From assembly GCF_902804475.1 (NCBI RefSeq), contig NZ_CADCSU010000099.1, forward strand, positions 1 through 64,000: a stretch of 64,000 nucleotides of DNA. Reading direction: 5' to 3'. This DNA is from Flavobacterium bizetiae (GTDB lineage Bacteria; Bacteroidota; Bacteroidia; Flavobacteriales; Flavobacteriaceae). The position numbers and the translations under genes were made by a program. The notes under the pieces were generated by a model. The model saw only the letters and a program-made list of their open reading frames with translations, ran no database searches and was not told the origin of the DNA. Shown piece by piece: positions 3,214-42,480 of the stretch; the first letter of the stretch is position 1, and the number at the start of each line of letters is the position of its first letter.

Positions 3214-3513
3214 ATTTTTGCTTAGCGAGTGCAAATATACAACAAAGGTTTACTTATGCAAAAAAAAAGGCTTCAAAACAGGAGATATCAGGCAAGAAAA
3301 TGGTTTTACGAAACAATACATTTCATAAACTAAACCGTAACAAACAATAAATCAATATTTAAACATTGATCTTTTTTTTGATTTATTTTTAAATTAAATA
3401 CTTGATTTAAGTTCGTTTTAGATAATGTAATAACGAAGATTACTTCTTTACAGTCATTCTTTGTTTCGAAAAACGACAAACCAGACGGAAATGTTATGAT
3501 GAAAATGATTGTC

Positions 3514-3592
3514 CTAGCCCCGATAGGAGTGGAAATCCTTTTGTGGCGGCGTTCGCCACAAAAGATTGGAACGGATAGCGGGATTAGCTCCT
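3514..3592. repeat. Dispersed hairpin repeat
   Basis: A GC-rich island in an AT-rich gap. It contains the hairpin CTTTTGTGGCG-GCGTT-CGCCACAAAAG (3538-3564) flanked by the imperfectly complementary arms GCCCCGATAG and CGGATAGCGGGATTAGC. No T-tract follows, so it is not a simple terminator. A related segment with CCCGATTCGCC appears near 44067. I take it for a member of a flavobacterial intergenic repeat family. Confidence 0.5.
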
Positions 3593-20994: not shown

Positions 20995-21024
20995 AACGGC
21001 TGTCTACAAAGACGGCCGTTTTTA
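20995..21024. terminator. Bidirectional terminator between convergent genes
   Basis: The 10-bp stem AACGGCTGTC/GACGGCCGTT with a TACAAA loop has A and T runs on either side. It separates the acyl-CoA synthetase gene from the convergent exonuclease gene, overlapping the latter's stop codon. Confidence 0.85.
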
Positions 21025-21567
21025 ATTGCGCAAACACCATTTCAGGATTTTCGCGATATTCTTTGCATCATCAATTCCGCGGTGATGCGTTCCTTCTAAT
21101 GGAATATTTAATAGATGCAAAGCACCATTCATTCCGGTAGGTTTTTGTAAATCTAATTTTTCAGCAACAAGTGTTTTCACATTAATATGCTGATCCCCCA
21201 TTGGGTATTGCATACCAAATGACCTACATTGCCTTCGAATCATGTTGAGATCGTACTGACCGTAACTTGCCCAGGTATATAAATCAGGCTGATATTCATC
21301 TACCAGCTTTTCGATTGCTTCCTCAAAAGTTACTCCGTTTTTATCGAGTAAATCCTGCGTAATAGTGGTTAGTTTTGTACAAAAAGGACTTACACTCGAA
21401 CGTTGGGGTTTTATTAAGATGCCCTGATTCTGAGTAATTTCACCCGTTTGCAAATCTAAAACCGCCAAGCCAATTTCGATAATTTCATTTTCCTGACCTT
21501 CAGGAACTGCGCTTTGCCAACACGTGGCTTCTAAATCGATAATAATAATTTTATCTGTAGTTTTCAT
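21022..21567 (-). CDS. DEDDh 3'-5' exonuclease, ERI-1/KapD-like
   Basis: A 181-residue exonuclease of the DnaQ fold. The ExoI motif is DLEATC with D11 and E13, ExoII is YGQYDLNMI with D106, and ExoIII is HHRGIDDAKN with H162 and D167, so all DEDDh residues are present. The ATCW and TKLTTITQ segments resemble ERI-1/3'hExo proteins, which trim RNA 3' ends, rather than the DNA polymerase epsilon subunit. It lies 22 bp downstream of the slipin gene on the same strand, so it probably belongs to the same transcript. An RNA 3'-trimming role would fit the neighbouring repair genes, but that is inference. Confidence 0.82.
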   Translation of the reverse strand: MKTTDKIIIIDLEATCWQSAVPEGQENEIIEIGLAVLDLQTGEITQNQGILIKPQRSSVSPFCTKLTTITQDLLDKNGVTFEEAIEKLVDEYQPDLYTWASYGQYDLNMIRRQCRSFGMQYPMGDQHINVKTLVAEKLDLQKPTGMNGALHLLNIPLEGTHHRGIDDAKNIAKILKWCLRN

Positions 21568-21589: not shown

Positions 21590-22687
21590 TTACTTCACGA
21601 ATATTTCCTTCAATTGACCAATGACGTTTCCGCCTCCTGAAATTGTGATTTCTCCAATTTTATCAGCGATTTTCTCAACGTATTCCATCTCTTTCAATTT
21701 CCACAACATTTCGTTCTCTTCCATCAGCTTTGCTGTGTTTAACAAACTTCTTGTTGCAGCGGTTTCTTCTCTTCTCATAATACTGTTGGCCTGCGCTTTT
21801 TTCTCGGCAACCAAAACCTGATTCATGATTTCTTTCATATCTCCCGGCAAGATTACATCCCGAATTCCAGCATCAGAAATTGTTAAACCTAAGTCTTCTA
21901 TTTTAGTAGTTACTTCTCCTAAAATCGCTTCGGCAATTGTATCTTTTCTGGCCAATAATTCATCCAGAGTCAACCGGCCAACAAAAGCTCTTAAAGCCAA
22001 TTGCATGGAGACATACAATTGTTTTTCAAAATCTTTATTGTCCAGCAAAGCCTTCATAATATCTACAACCTGATATCTCACAAAAAAGTTGATTCTTAAT
22101 CCTGCTTTGTCTTTAGTCAACAATTCCTGACCGGAAATTTCTACTTGTTGCTGTCTGATATCGATTGTTTTAACCTCGATTGTAATCGCGTTATTCCAAA
22201 AGTAATGCGTTCCTGATTTCAATTCTTTAACAAAAGTTCCGTTTACAAACAACAACGCTTTGTCGTTGCTTGCTACAATAAACTTTCTGGTAAAGTATCT
22301 CATTTTTGCATGTTCCAATAAATTCACTTGAATGTTTTCAGTGATTTCAATCTTAGATAAATCGGCTCTGGTAAATTCATTTTTCACAATTCCTTTCCAG
22401 AATGCATATCTTCCAGGAACCAAAATCTCTTTAAAGTTTCCGTTTACAAATTGCATTACGATCTCATTATCGGCAACCTCAACCACTTCCAGCATTGCAG
22501 CCAAATCTTGATTCTGCAATAAAATATTCAACTCAAATGGAGCCTGAAATGCTGAATTCATATCGTAAACGAACAAATTCTTGTTTCCAAAAGTCCAGTG
22601 TAAACCTTCTTGTAATACTGCAACTAATTTTCTGTTTTCAAAAAGCAAACCTAATTGGTACGCTTCGATTTTAATTCTCTTTATCAT
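21590..22687 (-). CDS. Slipin (SPFH/band 7 protein)
   Basis: A 365-residue SPFH protein of the slipin type. It has an N-terminal beta-rich part with two repeats of the KxVAVLQEGLHWTFGN / NDKALLFVNGTFVKELKSGTHYFWN type, the band 7 domain (about 120-310, with GLRINFFVRYQV and GLTISDAGIRDVILPGDM), then a helical coiled tail ending in ITISGGGNVIGQLKEIFVK. There is no obvious transmembrane helix, so it is likely cytosolic or peripherally membrane-bound. Slipins accompany RtcB in many bacterial RNA-repair clusters. Upstream on the same strand lies a Y-RNA-like element and a regulated promoter, and downstream an ERI-1-like exonuclease. A relic of the same tail occurs at 26142-26199. Confidence 0.88.
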   Translation of the reverse strand: MIKRIKIEAYQLGLLFENRKLVAVLQEGLHWTFGNKNLFVYDMNSAFQAPFELNILLQNQDLAAMLEVVEVADNEIVMQFVNGNFKEILVPGRYAFWKGIVKNEFTRADLSKIEITENIQVNLLEHAKMRYFTRKFIVASNDKALLFVNGTFVKELKSGTHYFWNNAITIEVKTIDIRQQQVEISGQELLTKDKAGLRINFFVRYQVVDIMKALLDNKDFEKQLYVSMQLALRAFVGRLTLDELLARKDTIAEAILGEVTTKIEDLGLTISDAGIRDVILPGDMKEIMNQVLVAEKKAQANSIMRREETAATRSLLNTAKLMEENEMLWKLKEMEYVEKIADKIGEITISGGGNVIGQLKEIFVK

Positions 22688-23063
22688 AATTATATTTTTT
22701 TGTTTTAGGTTTTCTTTGTTTCAAGTTATAAACCCATAAAAACCTCTATTCTATTTTCTTTACTCTATTATCTTATTATTCTAAATAAAAAACTTCATTG
22801 CCTTTCTCCTCAGAGAAAAACGGACGAAGAGTTTGCGATCTGTTTACTCAAATTGTTTGCGATTGTTTTTTGTATATATGATCCTAAAATCATCTGTACA
22901 ATCAAATCGAAAAGAAAAAGAGTATTTCAAAAAACATAACTTTTCGCACTGGTTTTATCATGAGTGTGAAATTTCAGATGTTAAAAATCTTAGTTTCACT
23001 GACAAAGACAAATCAGTTTTTTTCTAATGGTCATCTTTTTAAGAGTGATAGTCTCTCTTCAAC

Positions 23064-23185
23064 AGGTTTTTGAGACCCGAAAAATCTATTGCTCTACCGG
23101 ATTAAGCTATCGCATTACTGCGAATGGGATTCGAACCCATAACACATAGAGTTGGTGATAGTTTTTTGGAAAACCATCAAAACCT
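23064..23185 (-). ncRNA. Y-RNA-like, circularly permuted tRNA mimic
   Basis: On the minus strand all tRNA parts occur in permuted order: 3' anticodon strand TCTAT, 5-nt variable loop GTGTT, T arm ATGGG-TTCGAAT-CCCAT, acceptor TCGCA closed by a GTAA tetraloop onto TGCGA, TA, D arm GCTT-AATCCGGTA-GAGC with the GG of the D loop, A, then ATAGA pairing with TCTAT. The 66-nt core (23085-23150) is flanked by AGGTTTTGA and TCAAAAACCT, which pair with one bulged A, like the closing stem of Y RNAs that binds Ro60. Between stem and core lies a 9-bp hairpin. YrlA-type bacterial Y RNAs are known tRNA mimics with a capped acceptor and are linked to RNA-repair operons. No TROVE/Ro60 gene is in this window. 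Confidence 0.78.
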
Positions 23186-23344
23186 CCAAATCAAGTTGCA
23201 TAGAAAAACATAATACGCTTTCGCGAAAAGTCCCCTACAATGGTGCTATACAGAAACACGCAACAGGACTTGTTTGATATTGCTAATCAAAGCCTTCACT
23301 TTGATGTATTTCAGTTTATAAAAGAACTTGTTTTATTTCCTGAG

Positions 23345-23391: not shown

Positions 23392-24177
23392 TTAATTAAT
23401 CCAATCTATGACAGTAGATAAATAAACTTGCCTAACCTCCTCAAATCGGGTTATGTTAGGGATATGATTTACTTCTAATAAATATTTAGAACCATCCTTT
23501 GCCACGATATAATCATTACCAATCATATCCATTTGCAAAATGTTTTTAATATGTAAAGTATCAGCAAGCAATTCAGAATCAACATCCATAAATCCCGCAT
23601 TATCAGGGTGAATTGATTTTAGCCACGAATCACCTTCCAATTTTATTTGCCAATAAACATTACCTATAATCATAATTCTAACAGCCTCTCCTTCATAATA
23701 AGGTTCAGTTGTTGCTGTAAATTCACTTTCCCATTCTCCTGTAAAACGATGTTTATTTTCACCACAATGCCAATTTCCCCATTTAGCAACGGTATCATTA
23801 CCAACATTTACTGAAGTACCTGCGCTTATAAATCCTCGTGGCGCACTAAATTTCGAATGTGCTAAAGCTTTTACCAAACACGGAATCTTAAAGCGACAAT
23901 CAAGCATTGCAGCTGCATTAGGATAACAAGCTCCTCCCCAAATTGCCAATCCAGAAATAAAATCAAAATCATTGTCATAAATTCCATAATAAACTACTTT
24001 GTCTACAGGCAACATTCCGATTCCGTTTGATTTTTCCATATAAAGAACCTCATCTTTAACAACAATTTTCGGAATTGATTGATGCCAAATAATATGTCCA
24101 GAATATTGTGCTTTTATAATGTCGTATTCTTCCTGTTCAATTCCTACCAAAGCAATTCGGTTATAATCTTGTTTCAT
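23392..24177 (-). CDS. ATP-grasp domain protein
   Basis: 261 residues from the ATG at 24177 (MKQDYNRIAL). The longer in-frame start at 24240 would overlap the RNA ligase gene and add a basic, low-complexity leader. The protein resembles ATP-grasp ligases: a beta-rich N-terminal part, a central nucleotide-binding lysine region (VAKWGNWHCGENKH), and a C-terminal metal-binding end with DMIGNDYIVAKDGSKYLLEVNHIPN, where the E and N of LLEVNxxPN would hold magnesium. Such enzymes form amide or ester bonds through acyl phosphates. The substrate is unknown. It starts 28 bases after the RNA ligase stop, so the two are co-transcribed. Confidence 0.75.
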   Translation of the reverse strand: MKQDYNRIALVGIEQEEYDIIKAQYSGHIIWHQSIPKIVVKDEVLYMEKSNGIGMLPVDKVVYYGIYDNDFDFISGLAIWGGACYPNAAAMLDCRFKIPCLVKALAHSKFSAPRGFISAGTSVNVGNDTVAKWGNWHCGENKHRFTGEWESEFTATTEPYYEGEAVRIMIIGNVYWQIKLEGDSWLKSIHPDNAGFMDVDSELLADTLHIKNILQMDMIGNDYIVAKDGSKYLLEVNHIPNITRFEEVRQVYLSTVIDWIN

Positions 24178-24205
24178 GACTTTTATTTTAATTTTTATTA
24201 TTACT

Positions 24206-24775
24206 TTAAACTTCTTCCAAATCCAATCGTTTAATTCCAAAATCGGACTTTCTTAATTTGCACATCCTTTCATCTGAAATATGATGAAATACAATTCCCT
24301 CTATATCATTTTCTGATAAGAATTTTTCTAAATCATCAAAATCAAAACTTAAAAAATCAAATACTTCACATCCGTGTTTTACCAAAGTGTGCTTTTCTAA
24401 TTTTTCAGGGTTTCCCTGTACTTTAGGTCCGCATAATTCGAATGTTCCGTCTGTGATAATTTCTAAATTATCAAAACCTTCAAAGAAAAATTGGTCTTCT
24501 TTTTTTGTGCGATCGCATTTTAACCAATGTGGGTGATGCCCGCTCACTACATCTGCTTCCTGGCACGGAATTGCATTCGCCGGAATCGTACGTCCTTTTT
24601 TGGCATCAAATCGTTTGAATAACTCTCCGTTAATAATAGCTGCAGATGTACCATCAAACTTTCTGGTTGCAATTGCCTGACCATTCATTACCCAGGCATT
24701 TTCTGTATTTAACTTATTTACAACTCTTGCAAGGTTGTTTGGATCTTTAACAAATAATGTACTTATCTTTTTCAT
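24206..24775 (-). CDS. RNA ligase, RLIG1/C12orf29-like
   Basis: 189 residues from the ATG at 24775; the longer in-frame start at 24880 reads into dispersed repeat sequence. Nucleotidyltransferase-ligase motifs are in order: motif I KFDGT with nucleophile K39, RFDAKKGR (55-62), FELCGPKVQGN (112-122, motif IIIa-like), EGIVFHH (159-165, motif IV) and K173 in CKLRKSDFG (motif V). The pattern, including GPKVQGN and the PHW segment, matches the human RLIG1 (C12orf29, DUF5565) family, which seals 5'-phosphate to 3'-hydroxyl RNA ends. This chemistry complements RtcB, which joins cyclic phosphate/3'-phosphate and 5'-hydroxyl ends. Three divergent tRNA genes lie directly upstream on the same strand. 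Confidence 0.82.
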   Translation of the reverse strand: MKKISTLFVKDPNNLARVVNKLNTENAWVMNGQAIATRKFDGTSAAIINGELFKRFDAKKGRTIPANAIPCQEADVVSGHHPHWLKCDRTKKEDQFFFEGFDNLEIITDGTFELCGPKVQGNPEKLEKHTLVKHGCEVFDFLSFDFDDLEKFLSENDIEGIVFHHISDERMCKLRKSDFGIKRLDLEEV

Positions 24776-24995
24776 TGTATATTTTTTTAACTGAATATTA
24801 AATTTGCCACGAAGGCGTAAAGAAACAAAGCTTAGTTTTTTATTTTCCTTTGCGACTCTGCGACTTTGCGCGGAAATCATTCCTTATTATAATCTTTAAA
24901 AGCACTTTGTCCATCTCGCGCAAAGACGCAAAGACGCAAAGTTTTAAAACCTTTGCAACTTTGTAACTTTGTAACTTTGTACCTAAAAAAATTGT
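24776..24995. repeat. Leader of the RNA ligase gene with CGCAAAG-type repeats
   Basis: Contains the dispersed flavobacterial strings TTGCGACTCTGCGACTTTGCG (written here only in part: TTGCGACTCTGCGAC, 24850-24864) and CGCAAAGACGCAAAGACGC (24917-24935), plus three TTTGTAACT units (24960-24979). No gene was seen. Confidence 0.5.
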
Positions 24996-25065
24996 CTGGG
25001 AAACAGGATTCGAACCTGCGACCTCCCGCGTCCAAGGCGGGTAAACAACCACCGTTATCTTCCCA
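24996..25065 (-). tRNA. Divergent tRNA-Pro (TGG)-like gene
   Basis: Acceptor TGGGAAG/TTTCCCA, anticodon stem CCCGC/GCGGG with loop CTTGGAC (anticodon TGG), variable AGGTC and T arm GCAGG-TTCGAAT-CCTGT are clear. The D arm is abnormally small (AAC-GGTGGTT-GTT), giving a 70-nt molecule. The gene is close to the RNA ligase start and on its strand. It could be a real but specialised tRNA or a tRNA-like decoy. Confidence 0.7.
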
Positions 25066-25167
25066 GTTGTTTTCTTTTTTAAGGTTCTGAGCTACTGGGG
25101 TACTAAGTTTTTTTAACCTTTGTCGCTTTGGACCTTTGAACCGTTGAACCTTCAAAAAGAAAAAAAG

Positions 25168-25240
25168 CGGCTCATACGGGAGTCGAACCCGTTTCTCCCG
25201 AGAGACAGTCGGGAAGGTTAGCCAGTAACCCCAATGAGCC
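25168..25240 (-). tRNA. Divergent tRNA-Asp (GTC)-like gene
   Basis: Full cloverleaf: acceptor GGCTCAT/ATGAGCC, D arm GGTT-ACTGGCT-AACC, anticodon stem CCCGA/TCGGG with loop CTGTCTC (anticodon GTC), T arm ACGGG-TTCGACT-CCCGT. Position 37 is T, where nearly all tRNAs have a purine. This suggests it is not a standard decoding tRNA-Asp. Confidence 0.72.
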
Positions 25241-25261
25241 AGTTCCTTCTAGAGAACATTG

Positions 25262-25334
25262 CGATTTCGGAAGGAATCGAACCTTCAACCTATTGATTAA
25301 CAGTCAAGCGCTCTGCCAATTGAGCTACGAAATC
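25262..25334 (-). tRNA. tRNA-Asn (GTT)-like gene
   Basis: Acceptor GATTTCG/CGAAATC, D arm with TTGG, anticodon loop CTGTTAA (anticodon GTT) on stem CTTGA/TCAAT with a C-T mismatch at the outer pair, T arm GAAGG-TTCGATT-CCTTC. It lies 21 bases upstream of the tRNA-Asp-like gene in the same orientation. Confidence 0.78.
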
Positions 25335-27822: not shown

Positions 27823-30800
27823 ATGAAAAAATACCTTAAATACATCGACGGAAACTCTGATAAGTTTTGGCAAATTGAAGTTACAGGATTAGAATATACT
27901 GTGACTTACGGAAAAAACGGAACATCAGGCACGTCTCAAACCAAATCATTTTCTACAGACGAAGAATGTCTGAAATCAGCAGAAAAAATACTAGCCGAAA
28001 AAGTAAAAAAAGGATATTCAGAAACGGGTGAAGTTGCTGTGGCTTCAAAGCCCAAAACAGCCAAAAGCGCAAAATCTGATGAAGTTCTTGAAGAATACGA
28101 TGCTATTGTAAAAGCTAAAAATATAGATTTATTATTGCCTTTTTTAAAAGAAAAATCAAAAGGGAATATTGAAGCTATCAAAAAGCTCATCAAAAAAAGT
28201 AAACGTTATTTTATGACCTACACTGATCTTACAAAAGATCCGGGTTATGTAAAAAAAGACAAACACGATTACGGCTGGGGAACCCGCGGCGATAAAAAGC
28301 AAAGCGATATCATTACTCTTAGTGCCATTGCTTTGTTTGATAAAACCGAAATCAATTCGTGGGATGAAGCTTTGAGTTTATTAAACGAAATAGACGAGAA
28401 AAGTCAGGTTCTGGAGGTTTTATTGTGGGCAAAACCCAACTGGCTAGATACTTTTATTTTAGACAAAGTAAAAAGACAGGATTGGGTTGGGTTTAATTAC
28501 CACACGCTGCGCGAATTAGAAGAACAGAATTTAATGTCCTTCAAACCAGAACTATATGCTTTGACACTGGCGGCAACAAACGAGTGGCGCGCAAAAATGA
28601 AGACCAGAAGATTTATTAATACATCCTTAAGCGACAAAATAACCTATCAAAGGGATATTCCGGAATTGTTTAATTACGAAACGATTCTGCACAATAGTTT
28701 CTTTAGAGACAATGACAAACAAAAACACGATGAGTTTCAGACCTGGGCGATTATTTATAAGTCATTATTAGACGAAAATAAAATGGATCGCGCGTTTTTT
28801 ATCGAAAATGCCATTCAGATTCAAACCAAAGAATGGAATAATAATCTGAAATCGTTCTTTAGAAAAAGAATCGAAGAATTTAATGTTACTCCCGATGAGT
28901 TTATCGTGCATCAGGAAAATATATTCTCGTATTTACACCATCCCTATCCGCCCATTACGAGTTACGGAATTGAGTTGATCAAGAAAATATACGATCATCC
29001 AAAATTCAAAACCAAATCATTTCTCGAGTGGCTGGAGCCTTTAATGATGCGCAGCGATTGCAAAGCCGCGATTAAAAACGTGTTGCCAATTCTGGAAAAA
29101 ATAACCAAATCGAATCCTAAACTAAGCGCAAACATTGCATCAATTATTGCCGATGTGTATGTTATTGCGGATCTGGCATTGCAGGAACGCGCGACAAAAA
29201 TTATAACCAAAATTGCCAACGCAAAAGATAAAGTACTGAAAGAAAAACTTTCGTCGTATGTAACCCTGATGCAGGGAAATATAAAATCAGGATTGACGCA
29301 GTTTTTAGATGAAGATGCTTTAACTATTGATGATACTGCTCTCGAGGAATATACATTCGAACCTCAGCAAGAATTATTACTTACAGAAGAAGTTGTGTTA
29401 CCAAAGGATTGGAATGATATTGTTTTTCAGTTTGGAAATTTTATTGGATCGGAAGAAATTCTGGATACCGAAATTTTGATGAATGTCTATATTCAACAGC
29501 GCGATTTGTTTCCCGCAGATTATACAGCACAATTAGAGCCGTATAATAAACAGTTGCAAAAACATTATTTTGAAGCTGTTCATAAAAATTACCTGAAGTC
29601 GTTTTTACAGCAGAAAATTCCAAATATTAATGGCAAATTCGACAGTACCTACAAGCATTATGCAAAAATAAATACGCTTACTTTAATGAAACCTTTGCTG
29701 GAAAAAGTACAGCAAAAGATCGTTTCAGATTCTGTTTTACCGTTACTCTCCTTCCCTAGCCATAAACCGTATTGGGTCGCTCCAAAAGTTTTATTAGAAA
29801 GGATTATTGCGTATCAAAACACAAAAGAAGAAATTGATTATGCCGATTTAGCTATTGCAATTGCGCGTATGCCGAGAGAAAATATCGATGAAGCATTGCC
29901 TTTACTTGATCAACTTGAAGGCGAACTCAAACCGCTTTTAACATTCTGCCTTGGTATTGATGAAAAACTAAACTTAGATTCGACTTCTATCTTCTCGAAA
30001 CTATTGGCAACAATGGGTAAAACCACCAAAGAAACCGGAAACTTATCACTTTGGGCTGTTGCAGCAAGAACATTTTATCCAAACGATACTTTTCCTGAAT
30101 TCGAAAATACCTATCTAAAAGATGTTCCGTTTGTAGTTGCTCCTTTTAAACCGGTAGTTCAGTTTAAAGAAAAATGGAACGAATGGACGAATTATCAAAC
30201 CAAACAAAAAGAAAGAACGCCATCGTGGTATGAGCTTCGATTCGACGTGCCTAATTATGCTAAAATACCGAATTACTTGTTGTACAGTCAGGATATTTAC
30301 AACAGACCAAACAGTTGGGATTATAATATAAATTATGCCGGAAACACCTATTTCTGGCACAGTATTATGCCGCAAAACTCAGACGCGCTCGCTTTGACTT
30401 TGCTACATAATTGCGGAATTGCCGATGGCGCAAAACCGGAACTAAAAGGTTTTCTGGATGTTATAAACCGACCTGAATTTCGTTTCTCAGATATTAGCTT
30501 GCTTTTATACGCTTGTTTTTTCTTCCAGGAAAAGAAAGATTTGCGATTACTGACCTCTGAAGTTTTAATCAATTTAATCGAAAAACAAGCCATTGACGTT
30601 AAAGTATTAGCAGAGAAAATAGCCTATCTGACCACCGAAAAATATGGCGTATTTTTAAGATTAGTCGACGGATTAATTGCCCTGAAAGATGTTTCGCCTT
30701 TACATAATAATGCTTTACTGCAATTGTTAAACTCATTCTTTGCGCATCTTGATTTAAAGGAAAAATTGCCAACCAACTTCAAGAAAATCATCGAAAACTA

Positions 30801-30915
30801 TCTTGATATTTTAACCAAAACCAATCAGAAACCATCAGCTGAAGCCCTTGTTTTCTTTGAGCAATGGAAAGATAATGCATCGCTTAAATCATTGATTAAG
30901 CAAATTTTAAAATAA
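27823..30915 (+). CDS. WGR-domain protein with large helical-repeat region (MolR/DUF6493-like)
   Basis: 1030 residues. The N-terminal 80 residues form a WGR domain ([29 protein letters not shown]), a nucleic-acid-associated module also found in PARPs and E. coli MolR. The rest (about 110-1030) is long alpha-helical repeat sequence. It is cytoplasmic, with no enzyme motif. Five bases separate its stop from the SWIM gene. In other Bacteroidota this pair often travels with a MoxR AAA ATPase and a VWA protein, which are not present here. Role unknown; a nucleic-acid scaffold is plausible given the neighbourhood. Confidence 0.72.
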
Positions 30916-30920
30916 AGAAA

Positions 30921-32249
30921 ATGACAGATCTCGAATATAATTATAAAGGAATTTCAACTTACAGTAAAACCAAAGGCATCAACAATCTCGTTCTGGCGCA
31001 CCAAACCGAAATTGAAGAAGTCAATAACATTCCGTGTTTTTTCTGGGGAAGTTTGACAGATCCTTATGTTACCGCAAAATGCTGGACTACGATTGCCAAA
31101 GTGGTTCGTTCCAGTTTTGGACCAATTCCGCCAAGTCTTCGCGATCCTATTGTTTCGGCAGGATCTGAACGATTGCGTTTCGAAGGTTTTTCGTCCTGCA
31201 ATGGCGTTTATGTTCGCCTGGACATGAAAGCCGAAGCCATAGACGGAGAATTTATCGCGAACGGAACTACGAATGTCGATTTTAACGACCCAATGCTGAA
31301 TGCCTTAAATGCGATTCAGAAAAACGAAAAAGTAACTCTTGCCGTTGGTCAGCAGGATGTTCAGGTGATTACCAGCAAAGCAAAAGTAACGGAGAAAAAA
31401 GTAACCTTGCCCATGCGCTGGATAAAAGGTTTAACGAGCGTACAGCTTTACTTAGCCGATATGGATCTTAAGTTTGAATTAAATAAAATTCAGACAATTC
31501 AGTTGTTTCAAAGTTTACCAAAAGGAACCGTAAAAGGTGATTTTTTCATAACCAAAAGAGCCGGAAAATTTATGTTTTCGACTTTGGCAACGGCCGACAG
31601 TGTGAGAATTGGCGGTGTGCAACGATTACGATTATTAGAAGGAATTCTGGCCATTGTAAATAAAATTTTCATTTACGAATCGTCAGACAAACAAACTTGC
31701 GCAATCGTGGCTGAATTTGGAAAAATGCAGCTTCTTATGGCTTTTTCTCCAGATTCGTACCGTGGTTTTTCGGGTGAAGGAAATGTGCTGGAAACCATGA
31801 CCGAAAACTTACCTATAGAATGGGTTTACGGTTTAAACAGTTTATTAAAATCAAACGAAACTTTTGACCCAACGATGCTTTCTATCGAAAATGATATCGA
31901 TTTTGGCACTATGGACAATCTGACTTCGAACTTATCGTCGATGGGATTATTGGGTTATGATTTAAGCGAAGAAGCACATTTTTACCGCCGACTTCCGTTT
32001 AAAACCGAACGTATTTTATCGCTGAATCCGAGGTTGAAAAATGCAAAAAAACTAATCGATAACGAAGACATCGAAATCGTCGAGCGCAGGGCAGATTATA
32101 TCGAAGCCAAAGTAAAAGGTTCGGGCGTTTTACACAAAGTAATTATCGACAATACTTCGCAAAGATGTACCTGCGACTGGTTTACGGCTTATCAGGGCAA
32201 AAGAGGAATTTGCAAGCATATTTTGGGAGTTAAGATGATGATTTCATGA
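30921..32249 (+). CDS. SWIM zinc-finger protein
   Basis: 442 residues ending in a SWIM motif CTCDW-x8-GICKHIL (CxCxnCxH), a zinc module thought to bind nucleic acid or protein. The bulk upstream is mixed alpha/beta without recognisable motif. It resembles the E. coli YehQ-type SWIM proteins encoded next to MolR/WGR proteins. It is co-transcribed with the WGR gene (5-base gap) and followed by a terminator. Confidence 0.82.
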   Translation: MTDLEYNYKGISTYSKTKGINNLVLAHQTEIEEVNNIPCFFWGSLTDPYVTAKCWTTIAKVVRSSFGPIPPSLRDPIVSAGSERLRFEGFSSCNGVYVRLDMKAEAIDGEFIANGTTNVDFNDPMLNALNAIQKNEKVTLAVGQQDVQVITSKAKVTEKKVTLPMRWIKGLTSVQLYLADMDLKFELNKIQTIQLFQSLPKGTVKGDFFITKRAGKFMFSTLATADSVRIGGVQRLRLLEGILAIVNKIFIYESSDKQTCAIVAEFGKMQLLMAFSPDSYRGFSGEGNVLETMTENLPIEWVYGLNSLLKSNETFDPTMLSIENDIDFGTMDNLTSNLSSMGLLGYDLSEEAHFYRRLPFKTERILSLNPRLKNAKKLIDNEDIEIVERRADYIEAKVKGSGVLHKVIIDNTSQRCTCDWFTAYQGKRGICKHILGVKMMIS

Positions 32250-33595: not shown

Positions 33596-33638
33596 AAAAA
33601 AGCGCAAAACTTTTTAAAGGGTTTGCGCTTTTTTTATT
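33596..33638. terminator. Bidirectional terminator
   Basis: AAAGCGCAAA and TTTGCGCTTT pair around a loop of about 11 bases with A/T runs on both sides, between the XRE gene and the convergent nucleotidyltransferase gene. Confidence 0.85.
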
Positions 33639-34692
33639 GGTATAATTCTTCTCTAATCTTAATTAAAGTTTGAATGACTTTTTCCTCATCCGGTTTTTCC
33701 GGAAGATTTGAAGTAATGTAATGACTTTCAATTGATGCAATTAAATTATCAGCCATTTCAAGCAAATCGTCGTATTCTTTGTTTCCAGCTTTTATATCTA
33801 ATAATTCATCACGATTAGGAACTCTAATATTTAATCTTCCGGTTGAAAGAATCTGCTCTGCAGTTTGTAAAAGACGAATCGTATGCATCATGTTTTTGCT
33901 GTCGTAATTTTTTCCGTGTTGCTGATTTGTATTGTAACGATCTTCGTTTCGTTTATCGATCCAATTCCAATATTCCGTGTATTCTTTGCAATATTTAGAA
34001 TATCCGTCTTGATTGCAGGATAAATAACCAATTACCTTTTCATTTTTAGGAATTGATGAAAGCGAAACTTCATTAGAGCTTTCCTTTTGAATAATTCCTT
34101 TGTAACCTAAACTATTATTATCGTCATAAAACAAAGCAAACATTCCTCTAGAATTAGGTAGATTCACCAAACCACATTGTTCTTGTTTCAAATTATTTTC
34201 TGCTAAAAAACTATTCGCTAAAACAGTTTCATAACCTTTTAAAACATAACAAAAATCCAAAAGGCTTTTCTTTTCCTTTGGCATTGGATTTACAATTTTC
34301 TTATTTAAACCTCTTGCCTTCTTGATCTGCGTTACGGCATAACCAGCAAAAGAATCTTTGCAGAGTTTTGAAAGAAAATCTTCTAGTTGCAAATGCTCCA
34401 TTAACGGATGTTTGTACAAAATACAATCTTCCGGCGAAGCCAAAATCTCTAATATATTCGGATTATTCTTAAGCAACAATTCTACAAAACGACCAATTTC
34501 ATAATACACCTCATCATTCGTCTCATTACTAATCTGCGGAATGTAATCTAACCCAAAGAATTTTTCTTTTGGCAGATAATAAACGCCTTTTATATCAGTA
34601 TCTGAAGTTGGCGTATTTAACCCAAAAGATTTACTTCCCGAAATAACTTCGAAAAGAATTAGGTTTTGAAATTTTAAATCTTGGATAGTCAT
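33634..34692 (-). CDS. RlaP-type nucleotidyltransferase (Pol beta fold), copy 1
   Basis: 352 residues. The Pol beta nucleotidyltransferase signature is GSKSFGLNTPTSDTDIKG, with GS (19-20) and the metal-binding D31-x-D33, followed by a helical region. The SPEDCILYKHP segment and the overall length fit the PF10127 (RlaP, 'RNA repair pathway DNA polymerase beta') family, which is recurrently linked with RNA ligases and RtcB. It probably adds nucleotides to RNA 3' ends. Its ATG overlaps the stop codon of the next RlaP gene (TAATG), so the two are translationally coupled. Confidence 0.8.
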   Translation of the reverse strand: MTIQDLKFQNLILFEVISGSKSFGLNTPTSDTDIKGVYYLPKEKFFGLDYIPQISNETNDEVYYEIGRFVELLLKNNPNILEILASPEDCILYKHPLMEHLQLEDFLSKLCKDSFAGYAVTQIKKARGLNKKIVNPMPKEKKSLLDFCYVLKGYETVLANSFLAENNLKQEQCGLVNLPNSRGMFALFYDDNNSLGYKGIIQKESSNEVSLSSIPKNEKVIGYLSCNQDGYSKYCKEYTEYWNWIDKRNEDRYNTNQQHGKNYDSKNMMHTIRLLQTAEQILSTGRLNIRVPNRDELLDIKAGNKEYDDLLEMADNLIASIESHYITSNLPEKPDEEKVIQTLIKIREELYQ

Positions 34693-35453
34693 TATTTTAT
34701 TATCATTTTTCTAAAAAACAAATCTAACTCTTCACTCAACTTCTTCCCGCTTCCTAGTTTACTCGCATTTTCCTGATTAAACTGTATCGTTTCCAATAAA
34801 AAATCAGTTATTAAAACTTGTTTTGGATGTAAATATTTTTCGTCTTGATTTGCTTTTATATTTTGTAACTCTATTATTTTCTCTTGTATGTTATGTGGCG
34901 CAATTGACAATAAATCAGCAAAAGCAACGGGTGGGAAAGTATTTCTTTCTATAATCCATTTTCCTGCTAATGCGGTGCGTAAAGCGTAGAAATAACTTTT
35001 TTGTTTTACTTCTTCCATTTCGCAAACTTCCATGAAATTTTTAGTTGTTCCTAAATAGTGGTGTAAAACTGCTATAGGCGAAAAACATTCTACAGCTAAC
35101 TCCTGCATTTGTTTTACAAAATCATCATTTGCATAATATACCACAGGCGAAAACAACCATTCGATCAAAGGTGCGTTAGATTTTGCTAATAATTTTACGG
35201 CTTTCCGTAAGTCCCAACCTGAACCGTCAAGATCGTCTTCCGTCATGAATTCGATTACATCTGGTTTTTCCCAAAGCGAGAAATAATACTCTGGTTTGTG
35301 TTTGTATATAAAACGAATATCATAATCGCTATCTGGAGAAGCAAATCCCCAGGCACGGCTTCCTGATTCTACAGCAAAAAGTATTTCTACATCTTTTTTC
35401 TGTTCTATTTGTTTTAATTTCTCAAGTATTTTTTCTTTCATGATTGGTTTCAA
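34692..35453 (-). CDS. RlaP-type nucleotidyltransferase (Pol beta fold), copy 2
   Basis: 253 residues, a shorter paralog of the downstream gene. The signature GSRAWGFASPDSDYDIR carries GS (31-32) and D43-x-D45, and SPVVYY marks the same secondary-structure position as in copy 1. Two coupled RlaP-type enzymes of different size suggest a division of labour or a heterodimer. First gene of the pair; Met5 (35441) is an alternative start. Proposed role: RNA 3'-end nucleotide addition before ligation. Confidence 0.8.
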   Translation of the reverse strand: MKPIMKEKILEKLKQIEQKKDVEILFAVESGSRAWGFASPDSDYDIRFIYKHKPEYYFSLWEKPDVIEFMTEDDLDGSGWDLRKAVKLLAKSNAPLIEWLFSPVVYYANDDFVKQMQELAVECFSPIAVLHHYLGTTKNFMEVCEMEEVKQKSYFYALRTALAGKWIIERNTFPPVAFADLLSIAPHNIQEKIIELQNIKANQDEKYLHPKQVLITDFLLETIQFNQENASKLGSGKKLSEELDLFFRKMIIK

Positions 35454-38061: not shown

Positions 38062-39483
38062 TCAGTCCTCACGGCTCCCATCATCTGCCATTCTAACCAA
38101 TTTCGGGGTAAACTTCGCTACAACATCAACTAAATCCTGTTGCGCTTCCATTACCTGATTGATATCTTTATACGCCATTGGGGCTTCGTCCAGACCCGCA
38201 CCGATAAGCGTAACGCCATGATCTCTCAGGATCGATTTCATGTCGGTTGGTGTGATGTTTTTTATTGCTTGAGTTCTGCTCATTTGTCTTCCTGCTCCAT
38301 GCGAAGCCGAATTAATGGCGTTCTCCTCACCTTTTCCTCTCACCAAAAATCCCGGCGCGGTCATACTTCCCGGAATGATTCCCATAACGCCTTTTCCGGC
38401 TGGGGTTGCTCCTTTTCTATGCACGATCACTTCTTCGCCGTTCCAGATTTCTTTCCAGGCAAAATTATGGTGGTTTTCGACTTTGGCTAAAATCGTCGCA
38501 CCCAGAGCACGTTCCATTTTGTTATGGATAATCTCGTGACAAGCCGAAGCATAATCTCCAGCCAAATTCATCGCAAGCCAATATTCTTGTCCCATTTGTG
38601 AATTCATATCCAGATAGGCTAAGTTTTTGGCCACTTCCGGAAGTTTACAAACGTCTTTGGCAATTTTAGTATAATGTCCGGCAATGGTGGCTCCCATTCC
38701 GCGTGAACCAGAATGCGTTAACAAAGCGACGTATTTTCCTTTCGGGATATTCAAAACCGAATCGTCTTTTGCAAATTCCATGATTCCGAATTCCACAAAG
38801 TGATTTCCACCACCTGAAGATCCTAATTGCGACCAGGCCTTATCTTTCAAGTTCTTCACAAACGGATTCATATTAAAAGCATCGTTCTCCAAAACCGCAT
38901 GATCTGATTTGTATTGTCCATGAAATCCGTGACCTGCTCCAAAAATCGAATTGGCAATTAATTCTTTTTTGAAATTGGCTTCGTTTTCAAAGTAAAAATC
39001 TTCTGCAATATCATAAACTGACAATGCCATTCTACACCCAATATCAACTCCAACTCCATACGGAATAATGGCATTTTTTGTGGCTAAAACTCCGCCAATT
39101 GGTAATCCGTAACCTTGGTGCGCGTCTGGCATTAAAGCTCCCGCAACCGTAACAGGTAATTTCATGGCCACTTCCATTTGTTTTCTGGCTCCGTCTTCGA
39201 TATGATCTAATCCGTAAGCTGAATATGCATTCGGATTCTGATTTAAAGCGATGAAATCTTCTGGTTTTTCATTCGATTTTTCGATTAAAGCAATTGCCAG
39301 TTTGCTGAAGATTTTATCGTCGATATAATTCTCCGGAGTTTCTAAGACGTTTTTGAAATTTGTTATCATTTCGTCTCTTGTGAATCCGTGTCTTTTGCTG
39401 TTTATTCTTAAGGCAATCCCAATTGTTTTTCCTTCTGGGAGTCCTAATTCTAATATATCTGTACCGTTTATTTGTGTTTTCAT
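38062..39483 (-). CDS. rtcB: RNA-splicing ligase RtcB
   Basis: Joins RNA ends carrying 3'-phosphate or 2',3'-cyclic phosphate to 5'-hydroxyl, using GTP and Mn. The 473 residues contain the metal motifs MPDAHQGYGLPIGGV and GVGVDIGCRM, the HSGSRGMG segment, the NHHNFAWKE histidine, RKGATPAGKG, and SASHGAGRQMSR, whose histidine takes the GMP. The regulon box P2 (39506-39543) ends about 22 bases before the ATG, so the gene has its own promoter and a short leader. The RING/TerD gene lies 266 bases upstream on the same strand. There is no rtcA or archease gene. Confidence 0.96.
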   Translation of the reverse strand: MKTQINGTDILELGLPEGKTIGIALRINSKRHGFTRDEMITNFKNVLETPENYIDDKIFSKLAIALIEKSNEKPEDFIALNQNPNAYSAYGLDHIEDGARKQMEVAMKLPVTVAGALMPDAHQGYGLPIGGVLATKNAIIPYGVGVDIGCRMALSVYDIAEDFYFENEANFKKELIANSIFGAGHGFHGQYKSDHAVLENDAFNMNPFVKNLKDKAWSQLGSSGGGNHFVEFGIMEFAKDDSVLNIPKGKYVALLTHSGSRGMGATIAGHYTKIAKDVCKLPEVAKNLAYLDMNSQMGQEYWLAMNLAGDYASACHEIIHNKMERALGATILAKVENHHNFAWKEIWNGEEVIVHRKGATPAGKGVMGIIPGSMTAPGFLVRGKGEENAINSASHGAGRQMSRTQAIKNITPTDMKSILRDHGVTLIGAGLDEAPMAYKDINQVMEAQQDLVDVVAKFTPKLVRMADDGSRED

Positions 39484-39749: not shown

Positions 39750-41990
39750 TTAATCAATTAATAATTGCGTAACTGCCACGGCATTTATCGCCCATTTTGC
39801 ATCGTAAACCTCATCAGCATTTTGATCTTCGGTGATGGTTAAACCTTGAGCTTCCGCTTTAAGTTGTAACAAACTACCAATATTCAATTTGCTGCTTAAT
39901 TTTGCTAATAATGCCTGAACTCCTTTAAAATCCAAACCACCTACAACCTGACCTCCGAAAGTCATCTCTAACCAAACGATTTCTCTTTTGGCTACATTCA
40001 ACACTCCAAAAACCAAACCTTTGGCAACATTTTGCGTTACACGAACCTGATGATCTACACACGACGGATCGTATGCAACTCCAGATTTTTCCGAAATTTT
40101 CATCGGGTGTTTGCTGTTCATCCAACCTACAACAAGATTTGGCGTAATACTTCCGTTGCTATATGCATTGCAAGTAAAAGTTACAAATTTTGCTTTGGCT
40201 TTCGCTAATTCATCAATGTTGATGTTGATATATTCAGCCGTCCCCACTTTACTCGGAATGCTTCGGATATCACCGCTATGCTGACAACCTGTTGTGGTTA
40301 ATCGGCTGAAAGAACAAACATCAGCTTTATCTTCATAAGCGATATGACAGCTCAAATCCATATCTAAATGCTGTGCCGGCAAATCTTTACCCCATTGCAT
40401 AAACAATCGCACTTCGTTTCCTTCAATCGGGAAACGTGTTCCCATTAAAGCAACTGGCAAATCCTGAACGGTTTCGCTTCGATCTCCTATAGAAACTGGA
40501 ATGTTAAACAATTGCGGATCGATATAGATTGTTTTGTTGGTATTAGCAACTGCAGCAAATCGTTTTTTCATCGCCAAAAGACACAACGCTTCGATTTGAT
40601 TTTTCATCACCTCTAGTTGATCTTCATCGTACAAATTCAATAATGCATTTGGAGCAATTCGTTTGTTGGTTCCGCCTAAAGGTTTCACACTTCTTTGCAT
40701 GTTTTTATCAAAATAATTTTGAGCATACATATTCAATGTAAATACCAATCTTGCCGGAACTTTATCTATTATTTCTGTAAAATGTGCCACAGTTTCGTCT
40801 GCACCAAACCATAGCATGTTTGAGAATAACGAACGTGCAAACAATCCTGGACGTTGTTTTAATAAGGCGAATGTTTTATCGGCATCAAATTTTAATCTTG
40901 ACTTGTTTACTTTGCTTTGCCAAACATCATAGACTTGGTTGTAGAATACATCCATTAAAAAATTCAATTTCTCAAATCCTTTTCTTTTACTGTATTCTGC
41001 CAAACGCAACGCTCGGATAAAACGAACCCACATTCCTCTTTTTGGATGCATGGTTTCGCACATTGCTTCAACTTCCATATCCATATTGTTCAACCAGTTT
41101 GCCACCATTAAACATTCTTTTCGGGAATATTTTAGTTTCAAATCATTTGTTGATGCAATTCTGGCCTGAACGCTTGTATCTAAAACATTGTATAAATGCT
41201 GAGCATTTTTTGATGTTCTTTTGATAATTGTTTTTGGCTCGATAATCTGAAGCATTCCTGTGTTTTTATACCATAAATATCGTAAGATATCGGTTGGTGT
41301 TTTCAAAAACTGAGACGCTTCGGCTTCTTTACCGTTTTCGATCAAAAGATCAATTACAAGCATTAAAGTTTCCTTCATTGCAACATCCGTTTTTGGTAAA
41401 GGCAAATTTTTCATCACCATTTTCAAACTATCTACTTGCGTAGCGTCTAAAGCGGTTTTAGATTGCAATAACGATATATAGAAATCATTTAAATCTTTTT
41501 CTGACCACAATTCAAGAACTTTCAATTTACCTCTTTGTCCGAATTTTTCGATTTTCCAGAATTCAAAAGGAGTTCCGCAGAATGGACAACCATTGTATCT
41601 TTCTAACGGAAAAGTATTATCTGGGATAATATGTCCGCATTGCAAAGTCGTTCCGCTTTTTATATTCAAAACATTCCAAAAATACGTGACAACATGATCT
41701 AAAACAGATTCTCCTGTTGGTACATTCCATTCTTTTACCAATGGTGTCCAATTTTTATCTGTTCCTAAAACTTCTCTCAAAACTTCTAAAACTTCAACTT
41801 TATAATTTGGGTTCACATTGTTTAAAGCATGTAATAATGATTCAGAAAATGTAAATCCAAGTTTTGAAACATTGGCTAACAAAACTGAAGTTGTTCCTGA
41901 TAAATTTTTAACGTCATTCGTAATCATTTCTGATGGAATGAAAATAGCATTTTGACGTAAACTGATTTTTAATAATTCTTTTGTTTTCAT
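39750..41990 (-). CDS. RING-finger/TerD-like protein linked to RtcB (MXAN_6230/SCO0854-like)
   Basis: 746 residues. A RING-like zinc site is seen in LQCGHIIP (C118, H120) and NGCPFCGTPF (C135, C138). A long alpha-helical part (about 155-500) follows. A TerD-like beta domain (about 505-670) contains LDMDLSCHI and the TerD hallmark HSGD (571-574). I believe this is the 'MXAN_6230/SCO0854 family RING domain' group (from memory, not searched). The helical part recalls HEAT/TROVE-type RNA-binding scaffolds, but I see no TROVE-specific motif or VWA MIDAS. Its leader contains the tRNA-like array and two regulon promoters, which ties it to RNA repair. Confidence 0.7.
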   Translation of the reverse strand: MKTKELLKISLRQNAIFIPSEMITNDVKNLSGTTSVLLANVSKLGFTFSESLLHALNNVNPNYKVEVLEVLREVLGTDKNWTPLVKEWNVPTGESVLDHVVTYFWNVLNIKSGTTLQCGHIIPDNTFPLERYNGCPFCGTPFEFWKIEKFGQRGKLKVLELWSEKDLNDFYISLLQSKTALDATQVDSLKMVMKNLPLPKTDVAMKETLMLVIDLLIENGKEAEASQFLKTPTDILRYLWYKNTGMLQIIEPKTIIKRTSKNAQHLYNVLDTSVQARIASTNDLKLKYSRKECLMVANWLNNMDMEVEAMCETMHPKRGMWVRFIRALRLAEYSKRKGFEKLNFLMDVFYNQVYDVWQSKVNKSRLKFDADKTFALLKQRPGLFARSLFSNMLWFGADETVAHFTEIIDKVPARLVFTLNMYAQNYFDKNMQRSVKPLGGTNKRIAPNALLNLYDEDQLEVMKNQIEALCLLAMKKRFAAVANTNKTIYIDPQLFNIPVSIGDRSETVQDLPVALMGTRFPIEGNEVRLFMQWGKDLPAQHLDMDLSCHIAYEDKADVCSFSRLTTTGCQHSGDIRSIPSKVGTAEYININIDELAKAKAKFVTFTCNAYSNGSITPNLVVGWMNSKHPMKISEKSGVAYDPSCVDHQVRVTQNVAKGLVFGVLNVAKREIVWLEMTFGGQVVGGLDFKGVQALLAKLSSKLNIGSLLQLKAEAQGLTITEDQNADEVYDAKWAINAVAVTQLLID

Positions 41991-42019: not shown

Positions 42020-42063
42020 GCGTTTCTGAGTTCTACCTAAAAGATTTTTGAAGTAAGAAACAC
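42020..42063 (-). ncRNA. tRNA-array element 5: stem-loop RNA
   Basis: On the minus strand GTGTTTCT pairs with AGAAACGC (8 bp, one G-T) around TACTTC and a 22-nt loop. The 5' arm is the variable N7 of repeat copy 42050-42069. No T arm. Confidence 0.5.
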
Positions 42064-42087
42064 TTGACCTTAAATTTGAGTGTAATG

Positions 42088-42142
42088 AATTAGCTGTTTC
42101 AAAGTGACAGTTTGGTGGGTTCCCCCAAGAAGTAAGCTAATT
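42088..42142 (-). ncRNA. tRNA-array element 4: three-way stem RNA
   Basis: On the minus strand AATTAG(CT) pairs with (AG)CTAATT and encloses TACTTC, the hairpin TTGG-GGG-AA-CCCA-CCAA, and the hairpin CTGT-CACTTTGAA-ACAG. The layout resembles an acceptor stem with two arms and no anticodon arm. Confidence 0.5.
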
Positions 42143-42170
42143 TTGACCCTCTTTTTTATTAATGATGATT

Positions 42171-42225
42171 TTAAAACTTGCCGGACTCGAACCGGAGTTA
42201 CCAATTGTCTTGAAGTAAGTTTTAA
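42171..42225 (-). ncRNA. tRNA-array element 3: mini tRNA-like RNA with T arm
   Basis: On the minus strand the 9-bp stem TTAAAACTT/AAGTTTTAA encloses ACTTC, a D-loop-like ATTGGTAACT and a genuine T arm CCGG-TTCGAGT-CCGG. It looks like a tRNA lacking an anticodon arm. Confidence 0.6.
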
Positions 42226-42239
42226 TTGACCATTAATAG

Positions 42240-42357
42240 TGAAGCAGATGGGATTCGAACCCACGACCCGGACATTAAAAGTGTACGAAGTAAGTTTGGA
42301 TTGACCTTTTAAGGATAATTTCAAAACTACCTGCTCTAACCGCTGAGCTACTGCCTC
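42240..42357 (-). tRNA. tRNA-Lys (TTT)-like gene interrupted by 45 nt
   Basis: Acceptor GAGGCAG/CTGCTTC, D arm GCTC-AGCGGTTA-GAGC, anticodon loop CTTTTAA (anticodon TTT), variable GGGTC and T arm GTGGG-TTCGAAT-CCCAT are all regular. The anticodon stem reads GG, then a 45-nt insert (42285-42329), then ACA, opposite TGTCC. Removing the insert restores a perfect GGACA/TGTCC stem. The insert carries one copy of the GAAGTAA-N7-TTGACC repeat. It may be a spliceable intron or a disrupting insertion. Confidence 0.75.
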
Positions 42358-42480
42358 ATGATAATTGAATAAAAAGGTAATGATGTAAGTGTGTACGTGG
42401 AAAGTTTTCGAAGTAACTCAAACTTGACCTGTTTTATTCTTTATTTTTATTTCTATGAACGTTTGTTTTTATTTCCTGAA

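Follow-up and report, generated by a model that had tools for sequence, protein, structure and literature searches.

To what kind of RNA does a tRNA belong whose parts are encoded in permuted order? The question is raised by a locus of Flavobacterium bizetiae, within a window of 64,000 nt (the whole stretch of contig NZ_CADCSU010000099.1 that was analysed), where the original prediction placed a circularly permuted tRNA mimic at 23064-23185 and likened it to a bacterial Y RNA. No strand was given in that prediction; read from the minus strand, the interval contains every tRNA element claimed, in the order claimed.

A permuted tRNA module with a sealed acceptor

The permuted tRNA, which we call module 1, spans 23085-23150 on the minus strand. 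It begins with the anticodon 3' strand UCUAU (23146-23150) and a variable loop of 5 nt (23141-23145), continues through the T arm AUGGG-UUCGAAU-CCCAU with its loop UUCGAAU (23124-23140), an acceptor stem of 5 bp closed by a GUAA tetraloop (23110-23123), the dinucleotide UA (23108-23109) and a D arm with GG (23091-23107), and ends with the anticodon 5' strand AUAGA (23085-23089). Both sequence and covariation support the T arm, the acceptor and the D arm, and a descriptor of these three elements matched once in 1200 nt, compared with a mean of 0.0 matches in 20 base shuffles of that stretch. ARAGORN called no tRNA gene at 23064-23185, and the Rfam tRNA model reached only 18.3 bits (E = 0.61) at 23116-23183. 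Single-sequence folding gave a weak signal (z = -1.19, with 25 of 200 shuffles equal or better); the support for this fold is the covariation among relatives described below.

An acceptor of 5 bp with a GNAA loop is found in all 18 close copies, and elsewhere the commonest loops are 3-4 nt long. With a short loop sealing the acceptor ends, the tRNA mimics of this RNA should not be chargeable, and they appear not to be. A working tRNA might still arise if the locus were a permuted tRNA gene, with the acceptor-joining loop excised and the anticodon joined by the RNA ligases encoded next door; algal permuted tRNA genes have the same permuted order. We consider this most improbable, as the 5-bp acceptor, short of the ~7 bp expected of a processable one, and the 3-4 nt loops leave little room for RNase P/Z processing or for CCA, and as the position of the module 1 anticodon loop is occupied, in the window and its close relatives, by the rest of the RNA.

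Module 1 is part of a conserved RNA of about 500 nt

The interval first proposed omits the remainder of a larger RNA. A conserved region at 22783-23283 on the minus strand (ends approximate) emerges from the alignment and consensus folding of 18 close relatives; it is composed of a 5' domain, a hairpin, module 1, a remnant of a second module and a 3' domain. Near its 5' end lies a conserved block (AATATCAAACAAGTCC...GTGTTTCTGTATAGCAC, 23243-23281, minus strand), many columns of which reach at least 85% identity over 75 rows. The hairpin GATGGTTTTCCAAAAAACTATC (23157-23178, minus strand) has 92.2% of its cells paired and two-sided changes in seven of its nine pairs. The 3' domain, ~240 nt, has a long closing helix (AAAAAACTGATTTGTCTTTG with CAATGAAGTTTTTT, 22787-23022, minus strand) and 71 predicted pairs, 15 of which show two-sided changes among the 18 sequences; in the window, this helix ends in a U-run ~100 nt before the ATG of a slipin gene. 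Given that module 1, the hairpin and the 5' and 3' domains are all conserved, we assign the RNA a length of ~500 nt in the window; in close relatives with two full modules it measures about 525-580 nt.

In an alignment of 79 sequences (A4), which was fitted to the model's structure and thus favours that structure, 95.7% of cells were paired, compared with 77.5% in shuffles that were uncorrected for relatedness and 42-53% in slid controls, and 41 of 50 pairs showed two-sided changes. Every one of the nine helices had such changes, namely four in the 5' domain, the hairpin at 23157-23178 and the anticodon, T, acceptor and D helices of module 1, the latter four being paired in 97.5-100% of cells in the 79 sequences. 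A parser-independent count gave a similar picture for the module 1 anticodon stem, where 84% of cells pair in register compared with 23-48% when slid; all five pairs of this stem are present in 54 of 73 copies. The tRNA helices are thus conserved across 79 sequences, which answers the doubt attached to the original prediction, namely that the paired positions might not be conserved in relatives. That the locus is merely the remnant of a tRNA cluster, made up of pseudogenes or of a tandem tRNA artefact, is hardly credible: tRNA genes do lie upstream, and the Rfam model of the Y RNA YrlA also matches apparent tandem tRNA arrays, but two-sided changes occur in all helices, the acceptor strands are only 4 nt apart and the RNA is conserved across several Bacteroidota families. 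We regard the fold and the family of this slipin-linked RNA as firm on comparative grounds, but not its function.

Likeness to YrlA, mostly without Ro60

The Y RNA reading survives in its permuted plan, which is that of the tRNA-like domain of bacterial Y RNAs, and finds no support in the Ro60-type stem or a Ro60 partner. As in YrlA (RF02553; structure 6CU1), a permuted T arm, a sealed acceptor and a D arm are closed by a stem that stands where a tRNA has its anticodon stem (PMC8394870, PMC11472068). A covariance search with the YrlA model, which had been proposed as a check, matched 23081-23153 on the minus strand with 41.5 bits (E = 9.9e-8 in 721 nt), which is below the cut-off of 69; this match, the sole meaningful Rfam similarity, spans model positions 18-91 of 114 and hence lacks the outer stem.

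The outer stem of 9 bp that was predicted to bind Ro60 exists as a complementarity between GGUUUUGA (23177-23184) and UCAAAAACC (23065-23073) with one bulge, but it does not covary. A test without gaps was blind to such a bulged stem even in the window, and a bulge-tolerant test was used instead: it found the complement in 7 of 14 close relatives (the window included) and in 7 of 39 others. Arms paired no better with their own partners than with foreign ones (7.50 compared with 7.52 pairs, and 6.51 compared with 6.58). The stem overlaps the covarying hairpin at 23157-23178 by two bases and uses the remnant anticodon arm of module 2 at 23063-23079, part of which it pairs with a conserved 5' GGUUUU segment.

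A genome-wide search for TROVE, the domain of the supposed Ro60 partner, gave no match in this genome, which is 99.95% complete. Within the genus, TROVE was found in 35 of 398 genomes at E ≤ 0.001, 34 of them above the cut-off and the 35th (G342) weak and with stops, and it is absent from 78 of the 96 genomes that bear the RNA. The two occur together in 18 genus genomes, which is above chance (Fisher odds 3.9, P = 2.6e-4, uncorrected for kinship), and 3 of 80 loci (best 80 of 435) have TROVE within 6 kb of slipin. Permuted RNAs adjacent to TROVE do exist in three genus genomes (G024, G130 and G382), with an outer stem of the type GGTGCCGTA...TTACTTCGT. They share the permuted module with the slipin-linked RNA but differ from it in that outer stem (AACAGGTGCCGTA...TTACTTCGT / CCTGTT), lie ~0.7 kb from the TROVE match and have no slipin within the 20-kb regions examined. 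Since these TROVE-adjacent RNAs (L050-L052) have no YrlA match at the 69-bit cut-off either, the cut-off may be blind to the phylum Bacteroidota.

The slipin-linked RNA further departs from YrlA in that its permuted module is set within ~500 nt of conserved RNA, in that two modules are as a rule chained, with a full anticodon arm of variable identity on the second, and in its slipin neighbour, in addition to the sub-cut-off score, the lack of a covarying Rsr-type basal stem and a genome without a TROVE match. Bacterial Y RNAs are 90-150 nt long (PMC8394870); the ~500 nt here is the span of conserved structure. A strict bacterial Y RNA would be a tether of the YrlA type, its basal stem bound to the Ro60/Rsr ring and its tRNA-like domain to a nuclease. 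Such an RNA would also be expected to be modified by DusA and TruB and to bind PNPase. The YrlA module plan, the sub-threshold YrlA match, the co-occurrence with TROVE in 18 genomes (with kinship uncorrected) and the outer-stem complement in half of the close copies speak for such a tether; the lack of TROVE in this and most RNA-bearing genomes, an outer stem that does not covary and is rare in distant copies, the few loci with TROVE near slipin and the different outer stem of the TROVE-adjacent RNAs make it very unlikely. Module 1 thus resembles the YrlA tRNA domain in construction, but we do not file the RNA as a member of YrlA.

A family linked to slipin in Bacteroidota

The Rfam YrlA model was rejected as a finder of relatives, as at E ≤ 1 it matched 97 of 101 genus genomes and 11 of 14 controls, and at E ≤ 10 it matched 13 of 14 controls, in each case with none above the cut-off. 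Overlapping YrlA matches ~110-150 nt apart look like tandem tRNA arrays; used as a finder, RF02553 needs a spacing filter. Because the model also matches controls, we turned to a gap-limited pattern and then to a covariance model of our own, R1. The pattern matched in 15 of 398 genus genomes, the window's own included; the match in G074 is by eye a true tandem tRNA array. Twenty regions of up to 20 kb around pattern matches and other candidates were examined, and slipin lies beside the RNA in 14 of them, often with RtcB, exonuclease and tRNA genes near. The other six comprise the three TROVE-adjacent regions (L050-L052), one region that ends at the contig end (L060), one different match (L068) and one tRNA-Gly array (L069).

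Eighty named Bacteroidota loci (best 80 of 435), from genera that include Flavobacterium, Chryseobacterium, Aquimarina, Proteiniphilum and Chryseolinea, were then found from an alignment of nine slipins, and their slipin linkage is therefore partly by design. R1 was built from 18 close Flavobacterium copies, and its match to the window (23084-23259, 206.3 bits) is thus a match to one of its own seeds. At E ≤ 1e-10, R1 found the RNA in 78 of the 80 slipin loci (best 80 of 435), always upstream of slipin and on the same strand; the two misses are L160, which has only 223 nt of upstream sequence, and L164. In whole genomes, R1 matched 96 of 398 in the genus Flavobacterium and 14 of 326 genomes, from 5 of 150 genera, in a phylum sample that includes the genus. 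An independent check of the linkage comes from loci found through R1, namely the five best genus matches and all 14 phylum-sample matches: slipin stands beside the RNA in 19 of 19 (one of them, L175, being the window). Phages, plasmids and viral contigs gave no match, the viral scan being for a single exact pattern. A literature search found no published description of the slipin-linked RNA, with the proviso that works cited by others may mention related loci.

In the window, slipin (Band_7/SPFH; Pfam PF01145, E = 1e-25) lies downstream of the RNA at 21590-22687 on the minus strand. In three loci (L141, L144 and L154) the slipin match is ~200 nt longer than in other loci, as if by an insertion, and at L056 (8439-9533, minus strand) the slipin reading frame has one stop codon. 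A cis-regulatory leader of slipin, in which the mimics bind a tRNA-binding protein of the neighbourhood (RtcB, ligase or nuclease) and so tune slipin much as the tRNA-like thrS operator does for its own enzyme, would account for the same-strand position upstream of slipin both in the 78 slipin-found and in the 19 R1-found loci, and a terminator scan found none between the RNA and slipin. Nevertheless, the long helix of the 3' domain with its U-run ~100 nt before the ATG looks like the end of the RNA, the T loops lie at varying distances from the slipin ATG (about -350 to -850), and the RNA exceeds in size and elaborateness the protein-operator mimics known to us; we therefore think a leader possible but improbable. 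A scan for sigma-70 promoters found two, compared with a shuffled mean of 3.5.

A second module with a changing anticodon

Most relatives have, after module 1, a module 2 that consists of a T arm, a sealed acceptor, a D arm and, as a rule, an entire anticodon arm, a plan as if a tRNA had been opened in its variable loop. In 74 of 80 loci (best 80 of 435), a pair of T loops separated by 50-110 nt precedes slipin at the distance expected. Six loci without a T-loop pair in the parser (L111, L143, L152, L160, L164 and L165) were left out of the 75-row core, in which module 1 was parsed in 73 rows and module 2 scanned in 74. In G338, a near relative, and in the window, module 2 has no T, acceptor or D arm and is reduced to its anticodon arm, in the window CGGGU-CUCAAAA-ACCUG (23063-23079, minus strand), with the anticodon CAA. 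An arm identical to this remnant stands at the end of a full module 2 in L094 and L100, and a near-identical one in L095, among the matches listed.

A strict module 2 anticodon arm, with 5 bp and a 7-nt loop, is present in 56 of 74 copies; the other 18 have no perfect arm by this parse. Although the parser made no use of the loop sequence, U33 is found in 55 of 56 loops, a pyrimidine at position 32 in 56 of 56 and a purine at position 37 in 55 of 56, so that the grammar of tRNA loops is kept. The anticodons themselves are of 16 kinds in 56 arms, UUU and CAA being the commonest. On a slipin tree (FastTree) we count at least 37 anticodon changes over 65 rows, for which the parser demanded U33 and a purine at 37, and in which the slipins of L141 and L144 were trimmed to a fixed length, with tails that may be out of frame. 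The mimic anticodon is shared with the local tRNA set in 17 of 34 loci, compared with a shuffled mean of 15.7, which indicates neither matching nor avoidance.

The RNA lies in an RNA-repair island

The RNA and slipin belong to a set of genes on the same strand, which comprises tRNA-Asn, -Asp and -Pro, an RLIG1-like ligase, a weakly RimK-like ATP-grasp protein, the RNA, slipin and a DEDD exonuclease. Upstream of the RNA on the minus strand lie the ATP-grasp gene (23392-24240; RimK E = 0.018 and rimK_fam E = 0.0018, weak and below the cut-off), the RLIG1-like RNA ligase gene (24206-24880; PF17720, 27.6 bits, cut-off 25) and the genes for tRNA-Pro(UGG), tRNA-Asp(GUC) and tRNA-Asn(GUU) (24994-25334; ARAGORN, Rfam). 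The DEDD 3'-5' exonuclease (RNase_T by profile match) is encoded at 21022-21567, also on the minus strand. Farther upstream, on the same strand, are two RlaP-type RNA-repair nucleotidyltransferases (33634-35453; PF10127, E = 1.1e-23 and 1.7e-76), the RNA ligase RtcB (38062-39483; PF01139, E = 2e-82) and a RING protein of the MXAN_6230/SCO0854 type (39750-41990; NF041916, 129 bits, cut-off 600; Prok-RING_4 below the cut-off), with a putative TerD-like part named in the original prediction and read by eye. A divergent WYL-domain regulator (44104-45141, plus strand; PF13280, PF25583) stands at the far end of the island. Six of 80 loci (L112, L116, L149, L157, L165 and L168; best 80 of 435) have a WYL homolog upstream of slipin on the opposite strand and RtcB downstream. 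No anticodon nuclease was identified among the island genes. Two further features of the window may be recorded: a gene pair of the WGR/DUF6493-DUF7824-DUF7825 and SWIM-domain types inside the island (27823-32249, plus strand), also present in L057 and L068, and a Flavo-1 RNA at 3512-3589 (plus strand, 78.3 bits) flanked by two tRNA-His genes.

Transfer RNA genes accompany the RNA widely. Upstream of slipin, 268 tRNAs on the same strand compare with 2 on the opposite strand, in 51 of 80 loci (best 80 of 435); six of the 268 were called by ARAGORN within the RNA, and 49 loci remain when these are excluded. Asp, Asn, Leu-UAG, Phe, Tyr, His and Pro are common (L090-L169), and Gly, Ala, Val and Thr are nearly missing (3 of 268), so that the identity of these tRNAs is seemingly non-random. 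Anticodons for Gly, Ala, Val and Thr occur in 0 of 56 mimics by the strict parse and in 1 of 64 by a second count.

An RtcB like that of the window (E ≤ 1e-100) was found in 72 of 80 RNA-bearing genomes (the first 80 of the 96 positive ones) compared with 23 of 80 RNA-free genomes, taken at random from the others, and in 69 of 76 compared with 21 of 66 when only nearly complete genomes are counted; like the other gene associations, these are confounded by kinship and genome size. Counted from the listed rows, RtcB of the close type (at least 69% identity) occurs in 50 RNA-bearing and 14 RNA-free genomes, and 8 of the 80 RNA-bearing genomes have no RtcB match. Only 17 of 80 loci (best 80 of 435) have RtcB close to slipin, within 6 kb.

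The RNA might also work like YrlA without being one, as a Y-like tether in which the part of Ro60 is played by slipin, the exonuclease or the RING protein. The constant slipin neighbour is in keeping with this, as are the exonuclease homolog that 30 of 80 slipin loci (best 80 of 435) have within ±6 kb and the Y-like stem array that the RING gene has of its own in 25 of 25 loci; we know, however, of no RNA binding by SPFH proteins. The RING/TerD protein, proposed as a partner in the original prediction, stands beside that array and not beside the slipin-linked RNA, and just 1 of 80 loci (best 80 of 435) has a RING homolog within 6 kb of slipin. Equivalence of the RING protein to Ro60 is not supported: hhalign gave it a 3% probability of similarity to TROVE; a sequence search of the PDB, in which the TROVE profile does recover Ro60, returned only two marginal ABC transporter matches (E ~0.06); and its low-confidence AlphaFold model (mean pLDDT 58) found no fold match at E ≤ 0.001. 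On balance we judge such a tether unlikely.

The array before the RING gene is made up, in the window, of five GGTCAA...TTACTTC elements 75-123 nt apart (~42050-42430, minus strand), and of 2-7 such elements in the 25 loci, the window's included. At L213 the elements have a stem, a GGTCAA/ATTACC internal loop, a second stem and TTACTTC, and resemble the stems of the TROVE-adjacent permuted RNAs. The 25 RING genomes and the 35 TROVE genomes do not overlap, a weak signal given that ~2 shared genomes would be expected. At 42240-42357 (minus strand), as also at L190, a tRNA in normal order (45.5 bits) has its anticodon region interrupted by a Y-like element, forming a tRNA/Y-stem chimera.

A candidate tRNA decoy

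Taking the fold, the family, the place before slipin and the RNA-repair setting with tRNA genes as established by comparison of sequences, we infer a function in trans and lean, with slightly less than even confidence, towards a decoy in the form of an uncharged tRNA, or a bait, directed at anticodon nucleases, or a docking site for repair enzymes. Cutting of tRNAs would switch the island on, and the mimics would then present a tRNA elbow together with anticodon stems and loops that obey tRNA grammar. They may act as decoy or bait in trans; alternatively, RtcB, the RLIG1-like ligase, the RlaP enzymes or the exonuclease may dock on them. The tRNA genes of the island could replace lost tRNAs, the ligases could mend the remaining ones, and slipin possibly holds the complex at the membrane. 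In favour of this reading are the covarying fold, the spread of the family, the tRNA-like loop of the module 2 arm with its changing anticodon, the same-strand tRNA genes that nearly lack the same four isotypes as the mimics, and the greater frequency of RtcB in RNA-bearing genomes. Against it weigh an island in which no anticodon nuclease was identified, an anticodon indifferent to the local tRNAs, the copies without a perfect module 2 arm, the reduced module 2 of the window, the few loci with RtcB near slipin, the RNA-bearing genomes without an RtcB match, and a position that would also suit a leader. For YrlA, the tRNA-like domain has been suggested by the authors of one study as a possible competitive inhibitor of an anticodon nuclease, and Salmonella YrlA was not cut by a RecA-dependent nuclease (PMC7790460), which fits an inhibitor and not a sacrificial substrate.

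Comparable settings are known. YrlA lies within an RNA-repair operon in some species, and the Salmonella rsr-yrlBA-rtcBA operon brings together RtcB, a tRNA mimic and tRNA damage (PMC7790460); here, by contrast, slipin, RLIG1-like, RlaP-type, exonuclease and tRNA genes and a WYL regulator are nearby, with no Rsr match. In Anabaena, TrcR represses a 26-gene tRNA operon, rtcB, slipin and rimK, and antibiotics that stress translation relieve this repression (PMC10272220). In Anabaena the trn operon sits on a megaplasmid, whereas rtcB, slipin and rimK are carried by the chromosome; no tRNA mimic appears in the account on which we draw (PMC10272220). Transfer RNA mimicry within a larger RNA is also found in tmRNA and the thrS operator (PMC8394870), but tmRNA is charged with alanine whereas the acceptor of the slipin-linked RNA is sealed.

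More tentatively, we speculate that this large RNA family of Bacteroidota, which appears undescribed, is a modular uncharged tRNA decoy, with chained permuted bodies and anticodon arms exchanged in an arms race with anticodon nucleases, with co-encoded replacement tRNAs and ligases, anchored by slipin and free of Ro60.

These findings extend tRNA mimicry by permuted RNAs from the world of Ro60 and Y RNAs to a setting that is mostly free of TROVE, and show permuted modules strung together in a chain and joined to anticodon arms that change. They place a defined, testable RNA within a tRNA-repair island, and the covariance model R1, together with the conserved slipin neighbour, provides a means to find more such RNAs. 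If the decoy reading is true, the family would counter anticodon nucleases by means of an RNA, and the anticodon displayed in each species would hint at the tRNAs that are attacked there.
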